A DNA stretch of 64,000 nt from Fusobacterium ulcerans (GTDB lineage: Bacteria > Fusobacteriota > Fusobacteriia > Fusobacteriales > Fusobacteriaceae). The DNA lies in the NCBI RefSeq assembly GCF_003019675.1, contig NZ_CP028105.1, positions 1,504,282-1,568,281 of the forward strand. Direction: 5' to 3'. The notes beneath the pieces were generated by a model. The model searched no databases, had not been told where the DNA came from, and saw only the letters and a list, made by a program, of their open reading frames with translations. This document shows positions 7,031 to 15,321 of the stretch, in pieces. Position numbers and translations under genes: made by a program. Each line of letters opens with the position of its first letter. Positions within the stretch are counted from its first letter, which is position 1.

Positions 7031-7060
7031 AAAACAGGCATATTTTAAGCCTGTTTTTTG
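7031..7060 (+). terminator. Rho-independent terminator of the atp operon
   Basis: A 9-bp perfect stem (AAAACAGGC with GCCTGTTTT) with a 9-nt loop is followed by a run of T, 15 bp after atpC. Confidence 0.9.
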
Positions 7061-7097
7061 TTTTTGAGGGACTAATTGTGATTTCATAACATTCTAT

Positions 7098-7293: not shown

Positions 7294-7322
7294 TTGAACT
7301 TCTGTATTTTATATGCTATAAT
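7294..7322 (+). promoter_or_regulatory. Promoter of the chaperone-usher locus
   Basis: TTGAAC and a perfect TATAAT are separated by exactly 17 bp, placing the transcript start about 65 bp before the first gene of the locus. Confidence 0.75.
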
Positions 7323-7395: not shown

Positions 7396-7812
7396 ATGAT
7401 AAAAAAAATTTTTTGTTTTTTGTTAATAAGTTTAAACTTGTATTCAGGGGAGTTTCAACAAGTTTCTGCTGTAATAAAAATAACAGGGAAAGTTGTTGCC
7501 AATGCTTCATTAGTTGTAAAAGTAGATGGAGTGGAAACAAATGAAATAGTTATGGAAAACTATATCAAAGGATCTAACAATAAAAATACAAAAACATTAA
7601 CATTTGGCCTAAAAGAAGAATATACAAATGGAGCTATAAATCTTAAAGATGTAGATTATAGCGGTAATGAAAAAAATCTCTATAAGATAGAAAAAGTATC
7701 TGAAGGAGAAGAGAAAAAATTTAAGATATCATATAATACAGAAACATTAAATAAAATGAATCATGGGGATGAAGCAGAGGATACAATAGTTTTTACTGCT
7801 ACCTATGATTAA
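7396..7812 (+). CDS. Small exported protein, probable fibre subunit 1
   Basis: The 138-aa product begins with a Sec signal peptide (basic KK then a hydrophobic run ending near residue 18) and the rest is predicted beta-rich with repeated alternating hydrophobic residues. It ends in TIVFTATYD, a terminal beta-strand pattern shared with the other small proteins of this locus (TVTASYD, TFTASYT, RLTAIYR). It is the first gene after the promoter and lies 13 bp before the chaperone-like gene. No lipobox or sorting motif is present. I do not recognise a named family; a role as pilus or fibre subunit is inferred from context and the shared C-terminus. Confidence 0.55.
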   Translation: MIKKIFCFLLISLNLYSGEFQQVSAVIKITGKVVANASLVVKVDGVETNEIVMENYIKGSNNKNTKTLTFGLKEEYTNGAINLKDVDYSGNEKNLYKIEKVSEGEEKKFKISYNTETLNKMNHGDEAEDTIVFTATYD

Positions 7813-7825
7813 GTGAGGAGCGTAT

Positions 7826-8536
7826 ATGAAAAAAATAATAAGTATTGCATTCATGTTTTTAATGGTAACAGTGAGCAGTTTTGCATTTTTTAGAACTTCA
7901 GTAGCCCCAGGGATATTTGAAATGAATCTGGATAGATCAGCTACAGAGGAGATAATACTTGTAAATAATTCAAATGAACCTATCAGAGTAAAAATATATC
8001 CGGGAAAAGATGAAAATATAAAAGATGAAGAATATCTTGGAGAATGGCTGAGAATATATCCAAGAACTATGACATTAGAAGGAAATTCAGAAAGAAGAAT
8101 AAAATTTTCTATAAGAGCTCCTAAAGATAAACCTGATGGAGAATATAGAGGACTGATATATATAGAGGAACTTCCAGAGGTGGTAGAGGGACAAAGTACA
8201 TTGACTTTAGCTGGAAGACATGGGCTTACAGTGTATGGAACTAAAGGAAAAGTAGAATATGATATAGCTGTTTCAAATATAAAAGTTGTAAATAATGAAC
8301 TTACAATGAATATCAAAAATAATGGAAAATATAGTTTAAGACCTGAAATAAAAGTAAATTATCTCTCTGCTAAGGGTAAAAAGCTGGGAGAAATGGAGGA
8401 AAAAACTGGAAGAATCTTAAAAGACAGAACAGCAGTAGTAAAGGTAGAGCTTAAAGATTTGAAAGGTGAAGCAGTAGAAGTAAATGTATCTGGAAAAAGC
8501 AAAATACTTTATAGCGAAACTGTAAAGTTAAAATAA
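7826..8536 (+). CDS. PapD-like periplasmic chaperone
   Basis: The 236-aa protein has a signal peptide (about residues 1-20, ending SSFAFF) followed by what reads as two immunoglobulin-like beta domains: an N-terminal one with SVAPGIFEMNLDRSATEEIILVNN-type strands and PRTMTLEGNSERRIKFSIRAP, and a C-terminal one after about residue 145. This order, size and the 'NN sentence' before the proline-rich strand resemble periplasmic chaperones of chaperone-usher systems, which cap pilin subunits by donor-strand complementation. It stands directly upstream of the presumed major subunit and 0.9 kb before an usher. The sequence is far from the classical enterobacterial proteins, so the match is by architecture. 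Confidence 0.7.
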   Translation: MKKIISIAFMFLMVTVSSFAFFRTSVAPGIFEMNLDRSATEEIILVNNSNEPIRVKIYPGKDENIKDEEYLGEWLRIYPRTMTLEGNSERRIKFSIRAPKDKPDGEYRGLIYIEELPEVVEGQSTLTLAGRHGLTVYGTKGKVEYDIAVSNIKVVNNELTMNIKNNGKYSLRPEIKVNYLSAKGKKLGEMEEKTGRILKDRTAVVKVELKDLKGEAVEVNVSGKSKILYSETVKLK

Positions 8537-8555
8537 AATAAGGAGATGACGTATC

Positions 8556-9005
8556 ATGAAAAAAACATTTTTTATGGTAGGACTATTAGCAGCATTATCT
8601 ATGACAGCATTTGGGGCAGAGGTTGGAAAGGTAGAAAAAGCAATTGGTATTACTGGAACAGCAGTAAAAGGAATTACAATAACATCAACAGAAGAGACAA
8701 TAGAATTTGGAAGAGTATTAGTTAATAGTGAAGCAGTTTCACAAGAAATAGGATTGACTTTAACAGGAGAATCAGGACAAAATGTTGTTTTGAATTCAAC
8801 TATGGTAGGAGATGGGAGAGCTGATTTAAGTTTTGATGACGCAGCTAAAATAGTAGATGGAGAAAAACTGCTATTAACAACTGGAACTGCAACCAAAAAA
8901 TTTAAATTGAAATATAAACCAACTACTGCTGGAGCTTTAAATGTAACTTTAACAGTAACAGCTTCATATGATGACACAGATGCTGCATGGGTAGCAACAA
9001 ATTAA
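8556..9005 (+). CDS. Probable major fibre subunit (pilin)
   Basis: A 149-aa exported protein with a signal peptide cleaved probably after the Ala-Phe-Gly-Ala at residues 18-21. The mature part is Thr/Val/Gly-rich and beta-predicted, with the pattern ITSTEETIEFGRVLVNSEA that recalls DUF4402-type proteins (a strand, then 'xxFGxxxxxxxx'), and ends in LTVTASYDDTDAAWVATN. It is called the major subunit because it has a strong AAGGAGATG site and is followed by its own terminator hairpin at 9026, as pilus operons often do to make most transcripts end after the major pilin gene. The function is inferred. Confidence 0.6.
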   Translation: MKKTFFMVGLLAALSMTAFGAEVGKVEKAIGITGTAVKGITITSTEETIEFGRVLVNSEAVSQEIGLTLTGESGQNVVLNSTMVGDGRADLSFDDAAKIVDGEKLLLTTGTATKKFKLKYKPTTAGALNVTLTVTASYDDTDAAWVATN

Positions 9006-9025
9006 TAAATATAAACAATTAAATC

Positions 9026-9048
9026 AGGAGGAGGAATCCTCCTTTTTT
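9026..9048 (+). terminator. Internal terminator/attenuator after the major subunit gene
   Basis: A short GC-rich hairpin (AGGAGG 9026-9031 with CCTCCT 9038-9043) is followed by six T. It sits inside the locus, 12 bp before the next start codon's SD, so it probably limits expression of the downstream minor subunit and usher genes. Confidence 0.65.
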
Positions 9049-9062
9049 ATAAAGGAGAAAAT

Positions 9063-9461
9063 ATGAACTTCAAATTATTATGTATTTTCTTAATATTAAC
9101 AGTAATAAGTCTTTCCCAGGACTTAAAACCATTGATAATAACTGAAAAACAAGGGTTTAATTTTGGTACTATCATAAAAAATTCCTCTTCTAAAAAAGTT
9201 CCTCCACTTAGAAACCTTATACTTAATATAAAAGGAACGCCTTTTGAAGAGATAAAAGTAGAAATGGATACCCATTTTGAATTGGAAGATGGAGTATATA
9301 TAACTGATCCTGTTATTTTAAATGATGATGCTCTTATACTTGATAAAAATGGAGAGTTGGATTTAGAAATAAAAGGAAACATATATATCAATCATAAAGT
9401 AAAGCCTAAATCTTCCAGAGAAAAAATTGGAAATCCAATATATGTGGAGTATAAAAATTGA
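9063..9461 (+). CDS. Exported protein, probable minor fibre subunit
   Basis: The 132-aa product has a signal peptide of about 19 residues (ending SLSQ) and a mature beta-rich domain containing GFNFGTIIKN, the same 'FGxx' turn seen in the neighbouring subunits, and a C-terminal strand IYVEYKN. AAAGGAG precedes the ATG. Its stop overlaps the usher start by 3 bp. I do not recognise a named family; a minor or adaptor subunit is an inference. Confidence 0.5.
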   Translation: MNFKLLCIFLILTVISLSQDLKPLIITEKQGFNFGTIIKNSSSKKVPPLRNLILNIKGTPFEEIKVEMDTHFELEDGVYITDPVILNDDALILDKNGELDLEIKGNIYINHKVKPKSSREKIGNPIYVEYKN

Positions 9462-12040
9462 GAAAATTAATTGTATTATATACTTTTTTTCTGATAGCTG
9501 TATTTAGTTATTCAATAGATATGGAAAATATTACTGATGGAAATATGGATTTACAGGTAAATAGAATAAAAGAAGAATTTTTTCCTCTCTATATAGATGA
9601 GTTGAAGGGGATTGGATATCTTCCTATGAAAGAGTTTCTTTATACTATAGAATTGAATGAGATAGAAGTGGATTTTCAAAATAAGATGATAAAGGGAATA
9701 CTTCCAGATAAAAGGAAAATTCAGTGGAAATTTGATTCAGACATATCGTTTATAGATAACGAAGAACTATATTTAGAGATTGAGCAGCTGAATAAAATTT
9801 TTCCAGTAAAAAATGTAAAATTCGATCTGGCTATGTTGAATATAAATATACAGTTTGATCTTAAAATTCCAGCTGACATACGATATGAGCAGGAACAAAA
9901 AAGAAGAGGTATGTCAAAAGGAGATAAAACAGGAAAAAAACATGAATATATAGATAATAAGAGTTTTTTTTCTCCAGGAGTTATTCAAGTAGAATATGAA
10001 AAAAATGATTTGGAGAAGAGCAGAGGAAGTTCATTGTCAGTGAATTACTCTACTCAGTTATTGTATGGTGAATTAGATGGGGAATTTAGTATTTTTGATG
10101 ACAGCAGAAAAAATAGAAAAAAATTTGAAGTAGAATCTTTATCATTAAATTATGAAGATGTAATGGATAAAAAAGATGTGATATTGGGAAGTTTTTATAT
10201 GAGAGTCCCATCTTTTTATGATGTGGAAACAGATATTAATGGAATAAGCATCTTAGATTCATCTTCAAGATATGATGTAACAGAAAAAAATGGAAATACA
10301 TTTGAAGGATATGCTCCTTCAGGTTCAGTTGTAGAATTATATAGAAATGGAATATTGATAGATTATCAAAATGCAGATAATCAAAGATATATTTTCAGAG
10401 ATATAAATACTCAATCTCTTACTGATAAATATTATATAAGAATATATAAAGATGATGGAACATACATACAGCAGGATATCTCCCTATGGCTTAATAACAA
10501 GACTCTTAATAAAAACCAATGGAGTTACAACATACAGAGCGGGAAGGTAGATAAAAAAGGCGATAATAACTTCTGGGGAACATTGAGATATGGAGTTAAT
10601 GATTTTGTTACAGTGGAAGCAGGATATTATGATTTAAAAGGAAAATCAGAAGAAAGATATAGATATAAAGAAAGAGCCTATGGAATATATCTCAGCTCTC
10701 CACCTATAAAATTTCCATTTTGGACAAATATCAACTGGTATGAAGATACAGAAAAGAATGATGGAACTCTTATCTGGGAATACAAGCAGAATTTTTATGA
10801 TTTCATTTTAGAGGGAAAAGGAGAAAAGTACAGCAAAAGAATAAGTCTGGAAGAAAATAAAGAGGAAAAATACAGAGCCAATATCAGAAAAAGTTTTGGA
10901 AGATTGAATGTTGGTGCTGGTTATGAAGTAGAGGTATCTAAAGGCAAATATTACAGAGACTACATAGCAAGTGTTGGATATAATAGGAGATATGTAAGTA
11001 ATAATATAGAATATCGTTTTCAGGAATATGAAGAGGATGAAAATAGAAACAAGCATTCTACAAGATTTCAGACAGGGATATCATATTTTGACAACTGGAA
11101 TATAACAGCAGAGATAGATATAAAGTACAATAATAAATGGGAAATGGATACTGATAAATATTCAGTGAAATTTATAAGACGTAATAATAATTACTACAGT
11201 AAAAAATATTTTGATCTCTCTTTAGGATTTACATATTCAGAAAAAGATGAAGATCATTTTAGAACAGAGGTATATGCAACAATTTATCTGGAAGATTTTG
11301 GACTGCCATTTTTTAATACTGAAGTTTCTTTTGAAGCTAATGACAGAAGAAGTGAGGATAGAAAAGTAGGAACAAAAATTAAAAAGATAATTGTGCTTGA
11401 AGATCTACAACGCAACAGTAAACTAAAAAATATTTCTAACTCATGGATAAGTGGAAAAGTTTATATAGATAATAATTCTAACTCAATATATGATGAGGGA
11501 GATGAACCTTTATCAGAGATAAAAGTAACTGTTTTAGGTAAGAGTGTAGAAACTGATGAAGATGGAAATTATCTGGTTGAAGATATTTCATCTAATAGTG
11601 AATTCAATGTCAAAGTAGATAGAACATATATTGATCCTCTTTTATATTATAATGAGGAGAAATACTATAAAATGATGCCATCTACAGGAATGCATATAGA
11701 TATTCCTTTCCAGAATACTATATCTTTAAGTGGAAATATAAAATTAGAAGGGGCAGATATTCCAGAGGATAAACTTCCATACATATATAATAAAATGAGA
11801 ATAACTATAAAAAAAGATGGAAAAGAGATAAAAACTTTAAAACCTGAATTTGATGGTTTTTTCATATTAGATGGTTTGATAGAGGGAGAATATGTTATGG
11901 AACTTTCTTCTAAAGATGAGCAATATAAACCTTTAAAAGATAAGATGGAACTGTCAATAAAACCAGAAGAAGCAGCAAATGGTGTTTTTGAAGTCGGTGA
12001 TTTGATCTTTATTAAGGAGGATCAAAATGAAAATATTTAA
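9458..12040 (+). CDS. Outer-membrane usher-like protein
   Basis: The 860-aa protein has a signal peptide (about residues 1-19), a periplasmic N-terminal region, then a long Tyr-rich stretch of alternating residues typical of an outer-membrane beta barrel, and a C-terminal periplasmic part. Within it, YAPSGSVVELYRNGILIDYQ near residues 286-305 matches the plug/Ig-like motif of PapC/FimD and related ushers ('G.AP.GS.VELYRNG.L'), followed by YYIRIYKDDG. Near residues 664-710 lies a SdrD/carboxypeptidase-regulatory-like beta domain (DNNSNSIYDEGDEPLSEI, EDGNYLVEDI). The length matches ushers (about 800-870 aa). The start is TTG, overlapping the preceding stop. Ushers secrete and polymerise chaperone-bound subunits; this is a divergent member, identified by motif and context. 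Confidence 0.7.
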   Translation: MRKLIVLYTFFLIAVFSYSIDMENITDGNMDLQVNRIKEEFFPLYIDELKGIGYLPMKEFLYTIELNEIEVDFQNKMIKGILPDKRKIQWKFDSDISFIDNEELYLEIEQLNKIFPVKNVKFDLAMLNINIQFDLKIPADIRYEQEQKRRGMSKGDKTGKKHEYIDNKSFFSPGVIQVEYEKNDLEKSRGSSLSVNYSTQLLYGELDGEFSIFDDSRKNRKKFEVESLSLNYEDVMDKKDVILGSFYMRVPSFYDVETDINGISILDSSSRYDVTEKNGNTFEGYAPSGSVVELYRNGILIDYQNADNQRYIFRDINTQSLTDKYYIRIYKDDGTYIQQDISLWLNNKTLNKNQWSYNIQSGKVDKKGDNNFWGTLRYGVNDFVTVEAGYYDLKGKSEERYRYKERAYGIYLSSPPIKFPFWTNINWYEDTEKNDGTLIWEYKQNFYDFILEGKGEKYSKRISLEENKEEKYRANIRKSFGRLNVGAGYEVEVSKGKYYRDYIASVGYNRRYVSNNIEYRFQEYEEDENRNKHSTRFQTGISYFDNWNITAEIDIKYNNKWEMDTDKYSVKFIRRNNNYYSKKYFDLSLGFTYSEKDEDHFRTEVYATIYLEDFGLPFFNTEVSFEANDRRSEDRKVGTKIKKIIVLEDLQRNSKLKNISNSWISGKVYIDNNSNSIYDEGDEPLSEIKVTVLGKSVETDEDGNYLVEDISSNSEFNVKVDRTYIDPLLYYNEEKYYKMMPSTGMHIDIPFQNTISLSGNIKLEGADIPEDKLPYIYNKMRITIKKDGKEIKTLKPEFDGFFILDGLIEGEYVMELSSKDEQYKPLKDKMELSIKPEEAANGVFEVGDLIFIKEDQNENI

Positions 12041-12461
12041 ATATTTTTTCTTGTTCTGTTTATTATTTAAATTTTCATACGGGGTATATCAAAATACTAA
12101 TTCAGAGAAAATGAAGGCGGAATCAGAAGTTGCATTAAAAGGTCTGATAATAGAGATGAAAGGAATAGAAGAAGAGGTTCCTACCAAGATTGAATTGACT
12201 TTTTCACAGGAAGGTACAGATGTCGAACTTGTATTTAATCATGACAATGTAGAACTGTCAAGTGATGGTAATAGTTTAGTAAATATAGGTATTTCAAAAG
12301 GTGGAGGAGAAAATTCTAAATCAGTATTCAATATCACTTTTAAAAGCAAAAAATTGAAAGATAGTGAAATTGAACTTTTAAAAAGCGGAAAATCTATATT
12401 AGAAGATACTCCAAATAATGAGGAAATGAAAATAATAAGACTGACAGCAATATACAGATAG
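12027..12461 (+). CDS. Exported protein, probable fibre subunit
   Basis: A 144-aa protein whose start overlaps the last 14 bp of the usher gene, with AAGGAGG before the ATG. It has a signal peptide of about 18 residues (FFLFCLLFKFSYG) and a beta-rich mature part ending in IIRLTAIYR, the C-terminal strand shared by the subunits of the locus. No lipobox, sortase motif or catalytic motif is visible. A minor subunit is inferred from position and the C-terminus. Confidence 0.5.
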   Translation: MKIFKYFFLFCLLFKFSYGVYQNTNSEKMKAESEVALKGLIIEMKGIEEEVPTKIELTFSQEGTDVELVFNHDNVELSSDGNSLVNIGISKGGGENSKSVFNITFKSKKLKDSEIELLKSGKSILEDTPNNEEMKIIRLTAIYR

Positions 12462-12468
12462 GAGGAAA

Positions 12469-12864
12469 ATGAAAAAAATAATTTTGCCATTTATTATATT
12501 TCTTACAATTACAATTTATTCAAGTGAAAGAGCAAGTTTCAGAGCAACAGCTGTATATGAAGTAAAATCTCCTATCACAATAATTTCTAACAGAAGTGAT
12601 ATTAATTTTGGAATCCTTCTGGATGGACAGAAAGGAATAGTATCAGGACATACATTAACGCTTGAAGGGACAGGAGATATGAATTTGAAATACACTCTGA
12701 ATGTTTCTCAAAGTGATATAGGGCTTGAAATTGTAGAAAAAAACAAAACAACTAAAAGTGAGGGCATAGTCTATGAGTATGAATATACATGGGATACTCA
12801 AAAGAGTAAGATAAAAAATTTAAAAGGAACAGTAATAACATTTACAGCCTCATATACAGAATAA
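12469..12864 (+). CDS. Exported protein, probable fibre tip or minor subunit
   Basis: This 131-aa protein, 7 bp after the previous gene, has a signal peptide of about 17 residues and a beta-rich domain with SPITIISNRSDINFGILLDG, very like the presumed major subunit's ITITSTEETIEFGRVLV segment (DUF4402-like pattern). It ends in VITFTASYTE. It is the last gene of the locus. Being last and after the usher, it may be a tip or anchor subunit, but that is only a guess from order. Confidence 0.5.
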   Translation: MKKIILPFIIFLTITIYSSERASFRATAVYEVKSPITIISNRSDINFGILLDGQKGIVSGHTLTLEGTGDMNLKYTLNVSQSDIGLEIVEKNKTTKSEGIVYEYEYTWDTQKSKIKNLKGTVITFTASYTE

Positions 12865-13476: not shown

Positions 13477-15321
13477 ATGGAAGATTTAAAAAGCAGAGTA
13501 GATGAACTTTTAGAAAATCAGGAATATGATAAGGCTCTTGAGCTCCTTACAGAAAATGAAATAAATGGGGAAGCAGATATATGGACTAATTCAACAACAG
13601 GGTGGATACTTGGAAAATTAGGAAGAAGAGAGGAAGCTCTTGAATACTTGAGAAAAGTAGAGGGAGAAGAGGAAGAGAATCCATGGTTGTGTTGTGAAAT
13701 AGGTTGGAATCTAGGAGCTTTAGGAAAGAGCAAAGAAGCATTATATTATCTAAATAGAGCTAAAGAATTGGGAAGAGATGATGTATGGATCAATAGTGAA
13801 TTAGGTTGGAATATGGGGAGATTAGATAGAAATGAAGAGGCAGTGTATTATCTAAACAGAGCCAAAGAACTGGGAAGAGATGATAACTGGATATTTGAAG
13901 AGTTAGGTTGGAATCTAGGTATACTGAAAAAATATGAAGAGGCTCTTGAGAATCTTATTATATCAGAGAAAATGAGAGAACCCGATGCATGGACTAATTC
14001 ACAAATAGGTTGGAATTTAGGAAAAATGGGAAGAGATGAAGAAGCTGTTGCTTATTTACAAAAAGCAGTTGATCAAGGAAGAGATGATGCATGGGTTTAC
14101 TCTACTCTTGCATGGAATCTAGGTAAGTTGGAAAAAAATAAAGAAGCTCTTGAATATCTTTTAAAAGCTAAAGACTTAGGAAGAGATGATGAATGGCTTA
14201 ATAGTGAAATAGGATGGAATTATGACAGAATAGATCAGTATGAAAAAGCTTATGAATATTTGAAAAAAGTAGAAGATATGGGTAGGAGTGATGCCTGGTT
14301 CTTTAGAGAATATGGATGGTGTATAGGTAGGCTGGAAGGAGACAGGGAGGAAGAAGCTCTGAAATATCTAATGAAGGCTGAAGAACTTGAGGAAGCTGAC
14401 TCGTGGCTGAATACAGAAATAGGTTGGAATCTAGGAAAATTAGGTAAAAATGAAGAAGCTATTGAGAGATTGAAAAAAGCAGAGAAACAAGGAGATACAA
14501 GCAGATGGTTGTATAGAGAGATTGCATGGAACCTTGGAAGAGCTAAAAAACCAAAAGAAGCTTTGGAGTACCTAAGAAAAGCAGAAGATAAAGATAATTT
14601 AACTCCTTGGATTTGTACAGAATTTGCATGGAACTTAGGAAAATTAGGGGAAGTGGAAGAGGCTATATTCTATTTGAGAAAGGCTAAAGAATTAGGAAGA
14701 GACGATGCTTGGGTTAATAGAGAATTAGGATGGAATTTAGGAAAACAAGATAAATACAAAGAAGCTCTAGAGTGTTTGAGAAAGGCTGAAAAAATAGAGG
14801 AAGATCCAGACGCATGGCTGTATAGAGAAATAGGCTGGAATCTTGGTATGCTTGATGAGTTTAAAGAAGCTTTGGAATATTTGAGAAAAGCAGAAGAAAT
14901 GGAAGAAGCAGATGATTGGTTAAATTCACAAATAGGTTGGAATCTTGGAGAACAGGATAAATATGTGGAAGCTATGGTGTATATAGAAAGAGCTATGAAA
15001 CAAGGAAGAGATGATGCTTGGATAAATGGAGAGTATGGATGGCTTTTATCTAAACTGAATAAATATGAGGAAGCTTTGGAGTACTTTAAGAAAGCAGAAG
15101 CGGAAAAAGAACCATCTGACTGGCTTTTAGGACAACTTGGAGATGTACATAAAGAGCTTGGAAAATATGAATTAGCTTTAGAATACTACAAAAAACTTGA
15201 AGAGGCAGACCCAGAAGATTCAAATAATCTTTCAAATATAGCTGATGTACTTACAAAACTTGAAAGAAGTGAAGAGGCTGTGGAATACTATAAAAAGAGT
15301 GAAAAAAAAACGGCAGAATAG
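13477..15321 (+). CDS. Long TPR-repeat protein (first frame)
   Basis: A 614-aa protein made almost wholly of about 17 tetratricopeptide repeats of 34-36 residues. Most carry a distinctive GWNLGKLGK..EALEYL core with a conserved Trp pair, spaced by acidic/Arg linkers such as LGRDDAW. No signal peptide or membrane helix is visible, so it is probably cytoplasmic and acts as a protein-binding scaffold; the partner is unknown. The frame stops at 15319, right after a run of nine A (15302-15310), yet two more TPR units follow in the -1 frame up to 15575. The stop is thus probably a frame break rather than the natural end. Confidence 0.85.
   Translation: MEDLKSRVDELLENQEYDKALELLTENEINGEADIWTNSTTGWILGKLGRREEALEYLRKVEGEEEENPWLCCEIGWNLGALGKSKEALYYLNRAKELGRDDVWINSELGWNMGRLDRNEEAVYYLNRAKELGRDDNWIFEELGWNLGILKKYEEALENLIISEKMREPDAWTNSQIGWNLGKMGRDEEAVAYLQKAVDQGRDDAWVYSTLAWNLGKLEKNKEALEYLLKAKDLGRDDEWLNSEIGWNYDRIDQYEKAYEYLKKVEDMGRSDAWFFREYGWCIGRLEGDREEEALKYLMKAEELEEADSWLNTEIGWNLGKLGKNEEAIERLKKAEKQGDTSRWLYREIAWNLGRAKKPKEALEYLRKAEDKDNLTPWICTEFAWNLGKLGEVEEAIFYLRKAKELGRDDAWVNRELGWNLGKQDKYKEALECLRKAEKIEEDPDAWLYREIGWNLGMLDEFKEALEYLRKAEEMEEADDWLNSQIGWNLGEQDKYVEAMVYIERAMKQGRDDAWINGEYGWLLSKLNKYEEALEYFKKAEAEKEPSDWLLGQLGDVHKELGKYELALEYYKKLEEADPEDSNNLSNIADVLTKLERSEEAVEYYKKSEKKTAE

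Follow-up and report, generated by a model that had tools for sequence, protein, structure and literature searches.

What does the seven-gene operon at positions 7396–12864 of a 64,000-nt stretch of Fusobacterium ulcerans DNA (NZ_CP028105.1; the whole stretch is termed the window here) encode? Fusobacterial surface adhesion is usually attributed to autotransporters and FadA. An earlier note on this DNA had read the operon as a chaperone–usher locus, and comparison with relatives together with predicted structures supports that interpretation, which is essentially right: with a probability that we put at about 0.9, the operon encodes a chaperone–usher pilus. Its seven open reading frames (ORFs), with the coordinates and sizes that had been described, run on the + strand, as do the terminator-like, promoter-like and stem-loop elements described below, and specify proteins of 138, 236, 149, 132, 860, 144 and 131 aa. 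We refer to these as A138, C236, S149, S132, U860, S144 and S131, respectively. They are tightly packed, with intergenic gaps of at most 57 nt or overlaps.

The candidate usher is U860 (9458–12040). Scanning the seven proteins against Pfam and NCBIfam gave nothing above cut-off, and a search of the F. ulcerans genome with the Pfam Usher model PF00577 found no match anywhere, U860 included. (Weak matches of the seven proteins to WxLIP_PGBD, choice_anch_D, CagD and DUF2208 were taken as Ig-like resemblance or chance.) A profile of 22 fusobacterial relatives of the usher finds PapC in the Protein Data Bank (PDB) at 1.2e-7, the match extending over the plug and the neighbouring barrel. Six of the 22 also match PF00577, mostly weakly (best 5.5e-13), and the failure of that model on U860 is a limit of its sensitivity rather than a defining biological trait.

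The AlphaFold2 model of U860 (mean predicted local distance difference test score (pLDDT) 79, predicted template-modelling score (pTM) 0.59) begins with an N-terminal domain, followed by six barrel strands, a plug at about residues 272–341 and 18 further strands, as counted by hand from DSSP. Two C-terminal beta-sandwich domains come after the barrel, the first of them SdrD_B-like. A plug between barrel strands 6 and 7 is placed as in the structure of PapC. The best 17 chains found with the model in Foldseek are all FimD or PapC (top 2.5e-25), as are the best 15 in VIA, with Z between 15.3 and 18.5 compared with 14.5 for the best other barrel. The plugged 24-strand barrel that had been forecast for this protein is thus what is predicted. 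An SdrD-like domain had also been proposed for the usher; it is found in 19 of the 22 relatives, but U860 taken alone falls below the Pfam cut-off (18.7 versus 29.7 bits). Taken together, homology and structure prediction identify U860 as a putative outer-membrane usher with a 24-strand barrel, a plug and two C-terminal domains. Among the relatives, the usher at L094:1548–5444 has 1299 aa, with extra C-terminal stretches that resemble the CTD.

C236 (7826–8536) has the properties of the partner chaperone. On its own it has no match to PapD_N, a domain matched by 16 of its 27 relatives (best 7e-9). The Glaciecola and Psychromonas orthologues exceed the Pfam cut-off, and for that of Glaciecola the only PDB matches are to PapD. 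A proline in the D1 strand is the sole residue invariant across the chaperone superfamily, and Arg89 of CsuC and EcpB is the residue most typical of non-classical (archaic and alternative) chaperones (PMC4654587). Pro79 is invariant in 27 of 27 sequences of the C236 family and aligns with those of EcpB and FimC. The GEYR motif of C236 aligns with YYR of EcpB, providing the Arg89-type residue; many relatives have lysine there. The basic pair of the classical chaperones (Arg8 and Lys112 of PapD) is absent, both positions being occupied by other residues in an alignment with FimC, YadV, ElfD, YraI, YehC and PapD. By homology, C236 is therefore assigned to the periplasmic chaperones with two Ig-like domains that are related to PapD, and within these to the non-classical type, since the Arg89-type residue is present and the classical pair is not.

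Are the small exported proteins pilins? We gathered a family of 48 members related to S149 (8556–9005) from chaperone–usher loci, of which 23 match DUF4402 (PF14352) at E ≤ 0.01 and five weakly match SCPU (PF05229). S149 itself and the other subunits of the window lie below the DUF4402 cut-off, and none of the window's subunits matches SCPU. The earlier note had considered the subunits unlike any named pilin. That does not hold, as the best 17 PDB matches of the family profile are all chaperone–usher pilins, among them CsuA/B, FimA, FimG and CsuE. The model of S149 (pLDDT 86), calculated from an alignment from which the plasmid-database row was left out, has the anticipated Ig-like fold, and its best 20 matches in Foldseek are FimA, FimG, FimF, FimI, PapA and similar proteins. 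S149, S132 (9063–9461) and S131 (12469–12864) remain linked to each other after removal of their signal peptides, S131 being connected to the S149 family at 7e-18; a profile search begun from S131 drifted into chaperones. By homology and prediction, these three make up one putative pilin family, to which DUF4402, CsuA/B and FimA are related. All five subunits of the operon lack cysteine past residue 25, and all five have the tyrosine-containing closing strand that had been noticed earlier, which in S149 is found 11 residues short of the C-terminus (TVTASYDDTDAAWVATN). It reads VFTATYD in A138 (7396–7812), RLTAIYR in S144 (12027–12461) and FTASYTE in S131, which also has an INFG turn.

Polymerization by strand donation would require a donor strand, and one is apparent before strand A of S149 (I30-x-I32-x-G34-x-A36). 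Hydrophobicity alternates sharply here, with values of 1.00, 1.00, 0.83 and 0.96 at residues 30, 32, 34 and 36, respectively, and of no more than 0.13 at the positions between them. The motif IGITGTAV of S149 has counterparts in IKITGKVV of A138 and VALKGLII of S144, to be compared with VHFKGEVV of FimA and ITVNGKVV of FimG. Loosely defined, the motif is present in 47% of the members of the pilin family and in 11% of other ORFs; in its strict form it is rare, at 7% and 1%, respectively. The N-terminus of S132 is short and lacks a donor strand, and this is also the case for most of the S132 relatives listed.

These features suggest a division of labour. S149 is most likely the major, or shaft, pilin, because it is encoded by the fastest evolving gene of the operon, as would fit an exposed subunit, and because a conserved hairpin follows the gene. 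S132, encoded directly upstream of the usher gene, is most likely the subunit that initiates the fibre at the tip. This is based on its missing donor strand and on a second operon type, in which the same position is occupied by a protein of ∼280 aa whose N-terminal domain is followed by a pilin domain at the C-terminus, as in tip proteins of the FimH kind. A138, S144 and S131 may be minor, adaptor, adhesin or terminating subunits. A138 is the most conserved of the small proteins (84–94% identity) and no whole-domain homologue of it was detected; S144 has no homologue outside this type of operon. A connection between A138 and the pilins (5e-12) disappeared on removal of the signal peptide, and so is not claimed.

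From established chaperone–usher biology the following pathway can be proposed. The subunits would enter the periplasm by Sec, where the G1 strand of C236 would cap the unfinished Ig fold of each, and C236 would pass the subunit to the usher. There the N-terminal strand of the next subunit would displace that of the chaperone, and the fibre would grow outward through U860. Candidate donor strands are I-x-I-x-G-x-A-V of S149, I-x-I-x-G-x-V-V of A138 and V-x-L-x-G-x-I-I of S144. S132 would start the fibre at its tip, and S149 would be made in excess to form the shaft.

Where does the operon stand among the known chaperone–usher pathways? In three trees of ushers the fusobacterial sequences form a branch with those of DUF4402-type proteobacterial operons, apart from the classical and archaic ushers; the long branches L136 and L138 were omitted from the second tree and L148 from the third. 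Joining this branch to the classical ushers is rejected by the approximately unbiased (AU) test at p 7e-5, and joining it to ten archaic ushers at p 5e-4. By usher phylogeny, therefore, the operon shares a branch with the DUF4402-type operons of Pseudomonadota, distinct from both the classical and the archaic pathway. The classical pathway of type 1 and P pili has the same usher architecture and the hxhxGxVV donor-strand motif of FimA and FimG, but a separate usher clade; C236 differs in lacking the classical basic pair, and the window's subunits in lacking cysteines. With the archaic pathway (Csu, CupE) the operon shares the chaperone carboxylate-anchor arginine, the superfamily-wide proline, and the pilin fold with its closing strand. 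It differs in its usher clade, in a pilin family that is not SCPU and in an usher branch largely outside PF00577. On balance we favour a further major chaperone–usher lineage in addition to the three named ones (classical, alternative and archaic), having DUF4402-type pilins and ushers with SdrD- or carboxypeptidase-like C-terminal domains. Such a lineage would be common in Fusobacteriaceae, with scattered members in Pseudomonadota, and would have been overlooked because its ushers lie mostly outside Pfam's Usher model.

A number of points weigh against the assignment of the operon to a chaperone–usher pilus, and against its placement. None of the operon's own proteins exceeds the cut-off for a Pfam usher, PapD or pilin family, and the family assignment rests entirely on relatives and models. 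The PDB E-values of the S149-family profile are marginal, the best being 0.0047. General Ig folds tie with pilins for the S149 model in VIA, and for this reason we do not use the fold alone as proof. The U860 model has a pTM of 0.59 and low TM-scores (0.38–0.40), the latter probably as a result of domain placement. With signal peptides excluded, no whole-domain relationship to pilins is left for A138 or S144. The usher trees have long branches, include few alternative-pathway ushers and are unrooted. The same components might also make something other than a pilus, the usher and chaperone exporting the small proteins to stay on the surface as monomers, or as short polymers resembling a capsule, with no true shaft. 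All the subunits are single-domain proteins and this operon has no FimH-like two-domain adhesin, and thin polyadhesive fibres do occur in known pathways (PMC9452303). A donor-strand motif in at least three subunits and its absence from one is however what is expected of a polymer with a tip, and we consider export without a shaft to be unlikely. It is highly improbable that the operon is a decayed and non-functional copy such as that of a relative (G022), in which the usher is broken and upstream genes are missing; here every one of the seven frames is open, and purifying selection on six of the genes is clear in four species.

If the operon does encode a pilus, could its pathway be one of those already named? 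Among the named pathways an archaic locus gives the highest scores (usher 35, chaperone 12.7 and pilins 24–28 bits), and the pilins of some relatives match SCPU, as might be found for a divergent archaic (sigma) pathway whose pilins had drifted. That explanation is already disfavoured, and we regard it as distinctly improbable: the trees reject a union with the archaic ushers, and in a scan against PF00577 all the branch ushers included fell below cut-off where an archaic usher scored 121.7 bits and a possible alternative usher 69.8. A deep member of the alternative (alpha) pathway is a somewhat better prospect, if still a doubtful one. The mechanism would be the same, with two-domain carboxylate anchoring and register-shifted donor-strand complementation. 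The Arg89-type residue of C236 is common to archaic and alternative chaperones, EcpC is the sister of the branch in one tree, and two relatives have a faint match to TcfC. Against this, the usher profile scores EcpC at 2.5 bits compared with 35 for archaic and 17–33 for classical ushers, and the first tree puts EcpC on the other side, on a very long branch. EcpC shifts position between trees in which the alternative pathway is sampled by EcpC and one uncertain relative.

How widespread are operons of this kind? Of 61 Fusobacteriaceae genomes, 37 contain relatives of the usher, compared with none of 37 genomes from other Fusobacteriota. The DUF4402 genes of Fusobacteriota have the same distribution, lying mostly within or beside usher loci. 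Searching genome contigs with the profile of a six-row usher alignment yielded eight loci, and a search for relatives among viral contigs and plasmids found Polaromonas only. The branch is not confined to fusobacteria, as the earlier note had supposed, because it has its sister in DUF4402-type operons from Polaromonas and further Pseudomonadota and because the ushers of Psychromonas and Glaciecola (L069, L071–L073) nest inside the fusobacterial clade. From this nesting, the operons of these marine Gammaproteobacteria were probably gained by transfer between phyla. Their order is chaperone, pilin, S149-like, S132-like and usher, and differs from that of the window in having no A138 or S144. A search for SCPU in the Psychromonas and Glaciecola genomes gave no match, but the control gave no signal either, so that absence does not follow from this negative. 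The sister operons include that on plasmid NC_007950 of Polaromonas sp. JS666, which encodes two DUF4402 proteins, a 'fimbria/pilus periplasmic chaperone' and a 'carboxypeptidase-like regulatory domain' protein; L128–L131 are similar. The Polaromonas usher falls on the same branch, scoring 133 bits with the fusobacterial usher profile, and operons of this type share DUF4402-type pilins and usher C-terminal SdrD_B/CarboxypepD_reg domains with the window. The Polaromonas-type operon differs in its set of subunits, and its usher is annotated as a carboxypeptidase-domain protein instead of an usher.

According to a recent review (2026, PMC12940168), chaperone/usher pathways are missing from F. nucleatum genomes, and the genome paper of F. 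varium Fv113-g1 mentions no usher or fimbria (PMC5720691). In a survey of outer-membrane pore families, ushers are recorded for Proteobacteria, Spirochaetes, Cyanobacteria and Deinococcus-Thermus but not for Fusobacteria (PMC4827864). Within the literature searched, which covered papers available without subscription, we found no report of a chaperone–usher system in Fusobacteria, although an earlier one may exist, and no paper that names DUF4402. The pathway and its mechanism are of a known kind. As far as that literature shows, what is new is the occurrence in Fusobacteria, a branch that Pfam's Usher model largely fails to see and a candidate function for DUF4402. Should pili be made from this operon, a class of surface fibre not described so far would be present in much of the Fusobacteriaceae, DUF4402 would become a pilin domain, and surveys of ushers relying on PF00577 would have missed a branch. 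The question of chaperone–usher divergence would gain a fourth, cysteine-free set for comparison.

The operon is flanked by the atp operon and a GNAT gene, and this position and the gene order are the same in genomes G026, G027 and G028. Upstream, a hairpin with a T-run (aacaggc...gcctgttttttg; 7037–7061), read directly in the sequence as its loop exceeds the limit of the scanner, is likely to be the terminator of the atp operon. The consensus promoter of the earlier note corresponds to TTGAAC-17-TATAAT (7294–7322), whose second hexamer is preceded by TG and which is the best match on the + strand ahead of the operon. Its placement is right, but the region contains no surplus of such matches (36, compared with 40.9 expected from shuffles). 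Each of the seven genes is preceded by a purine-rich Shine–Dalgarno-like stretch, and U860 starts with TTG at 9458. Between the S149 gene and the distal genes is a stem-loop followed by a T-run (9026–9043; AGGAGGAG-N-AA-TCCTCCT), with a folding energy of -12.9 kcal/mol (z -2.2). Its arms are invariant in five loci, including one from Cetobacterium in which the usher is 43% identical. This is probably a partial terminator after the pilin gene, and if so the major pilin would be made in excess.

Compared with three other species, the ratio of non-synonymous to synonymous substitution rates (dN/dS) is 0.57–0.82 for S149 and 0.06–0.36 for the other six genes, dS being similar. Amino-acid identity between the species is 42–48% for S149, 50–76% for S144 and 67–94% for A138, C236, S132, U860 and S131. 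There is no sign of recent import into F. ulcerans, since the GC content (0.29–0.31) is like that of much of the window and synteny at the locus extends over four species. A TPR-repeat protein encoded downstream of the operon (window 13477–15321) has 614 aa here and 575–701 aa in relatives, which suggests a change in repeat number between species.

The F. ulcerans genome contains a second chaperone–usher operon, L031 (G000:C1:848000-867000), which is 27% identical and has several chaperone–pilin pairs. It also encodes a DUF4402 protein of 280 aa with two domains, a protein with MORN repeats, one of the SBP_bac_5 family and a sensor of 708 aa with SBP_bac_3 and HD domains. Similar loci are L033, L034, L050–L053, L056, L063, L064, L067 and L070. 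Judged by gene content, operons of this type suggest a signal-linked control of the fibres, perhaps by cyclic di-GMP. At L055:7192–9701 the usher is split into two ORFs and upstream genes are missing, so that this is a decayed copy. Four loci encode giant exported proteins of 1368–2129 aa (L043:11503–17892, L044:12564–16670, L045:2039–7534 and L046:46–6435), each ending in a pilin-like closing strand and adjoined by an usher and chaperones. From their sequences, these are possible tip adhesins of very large size.
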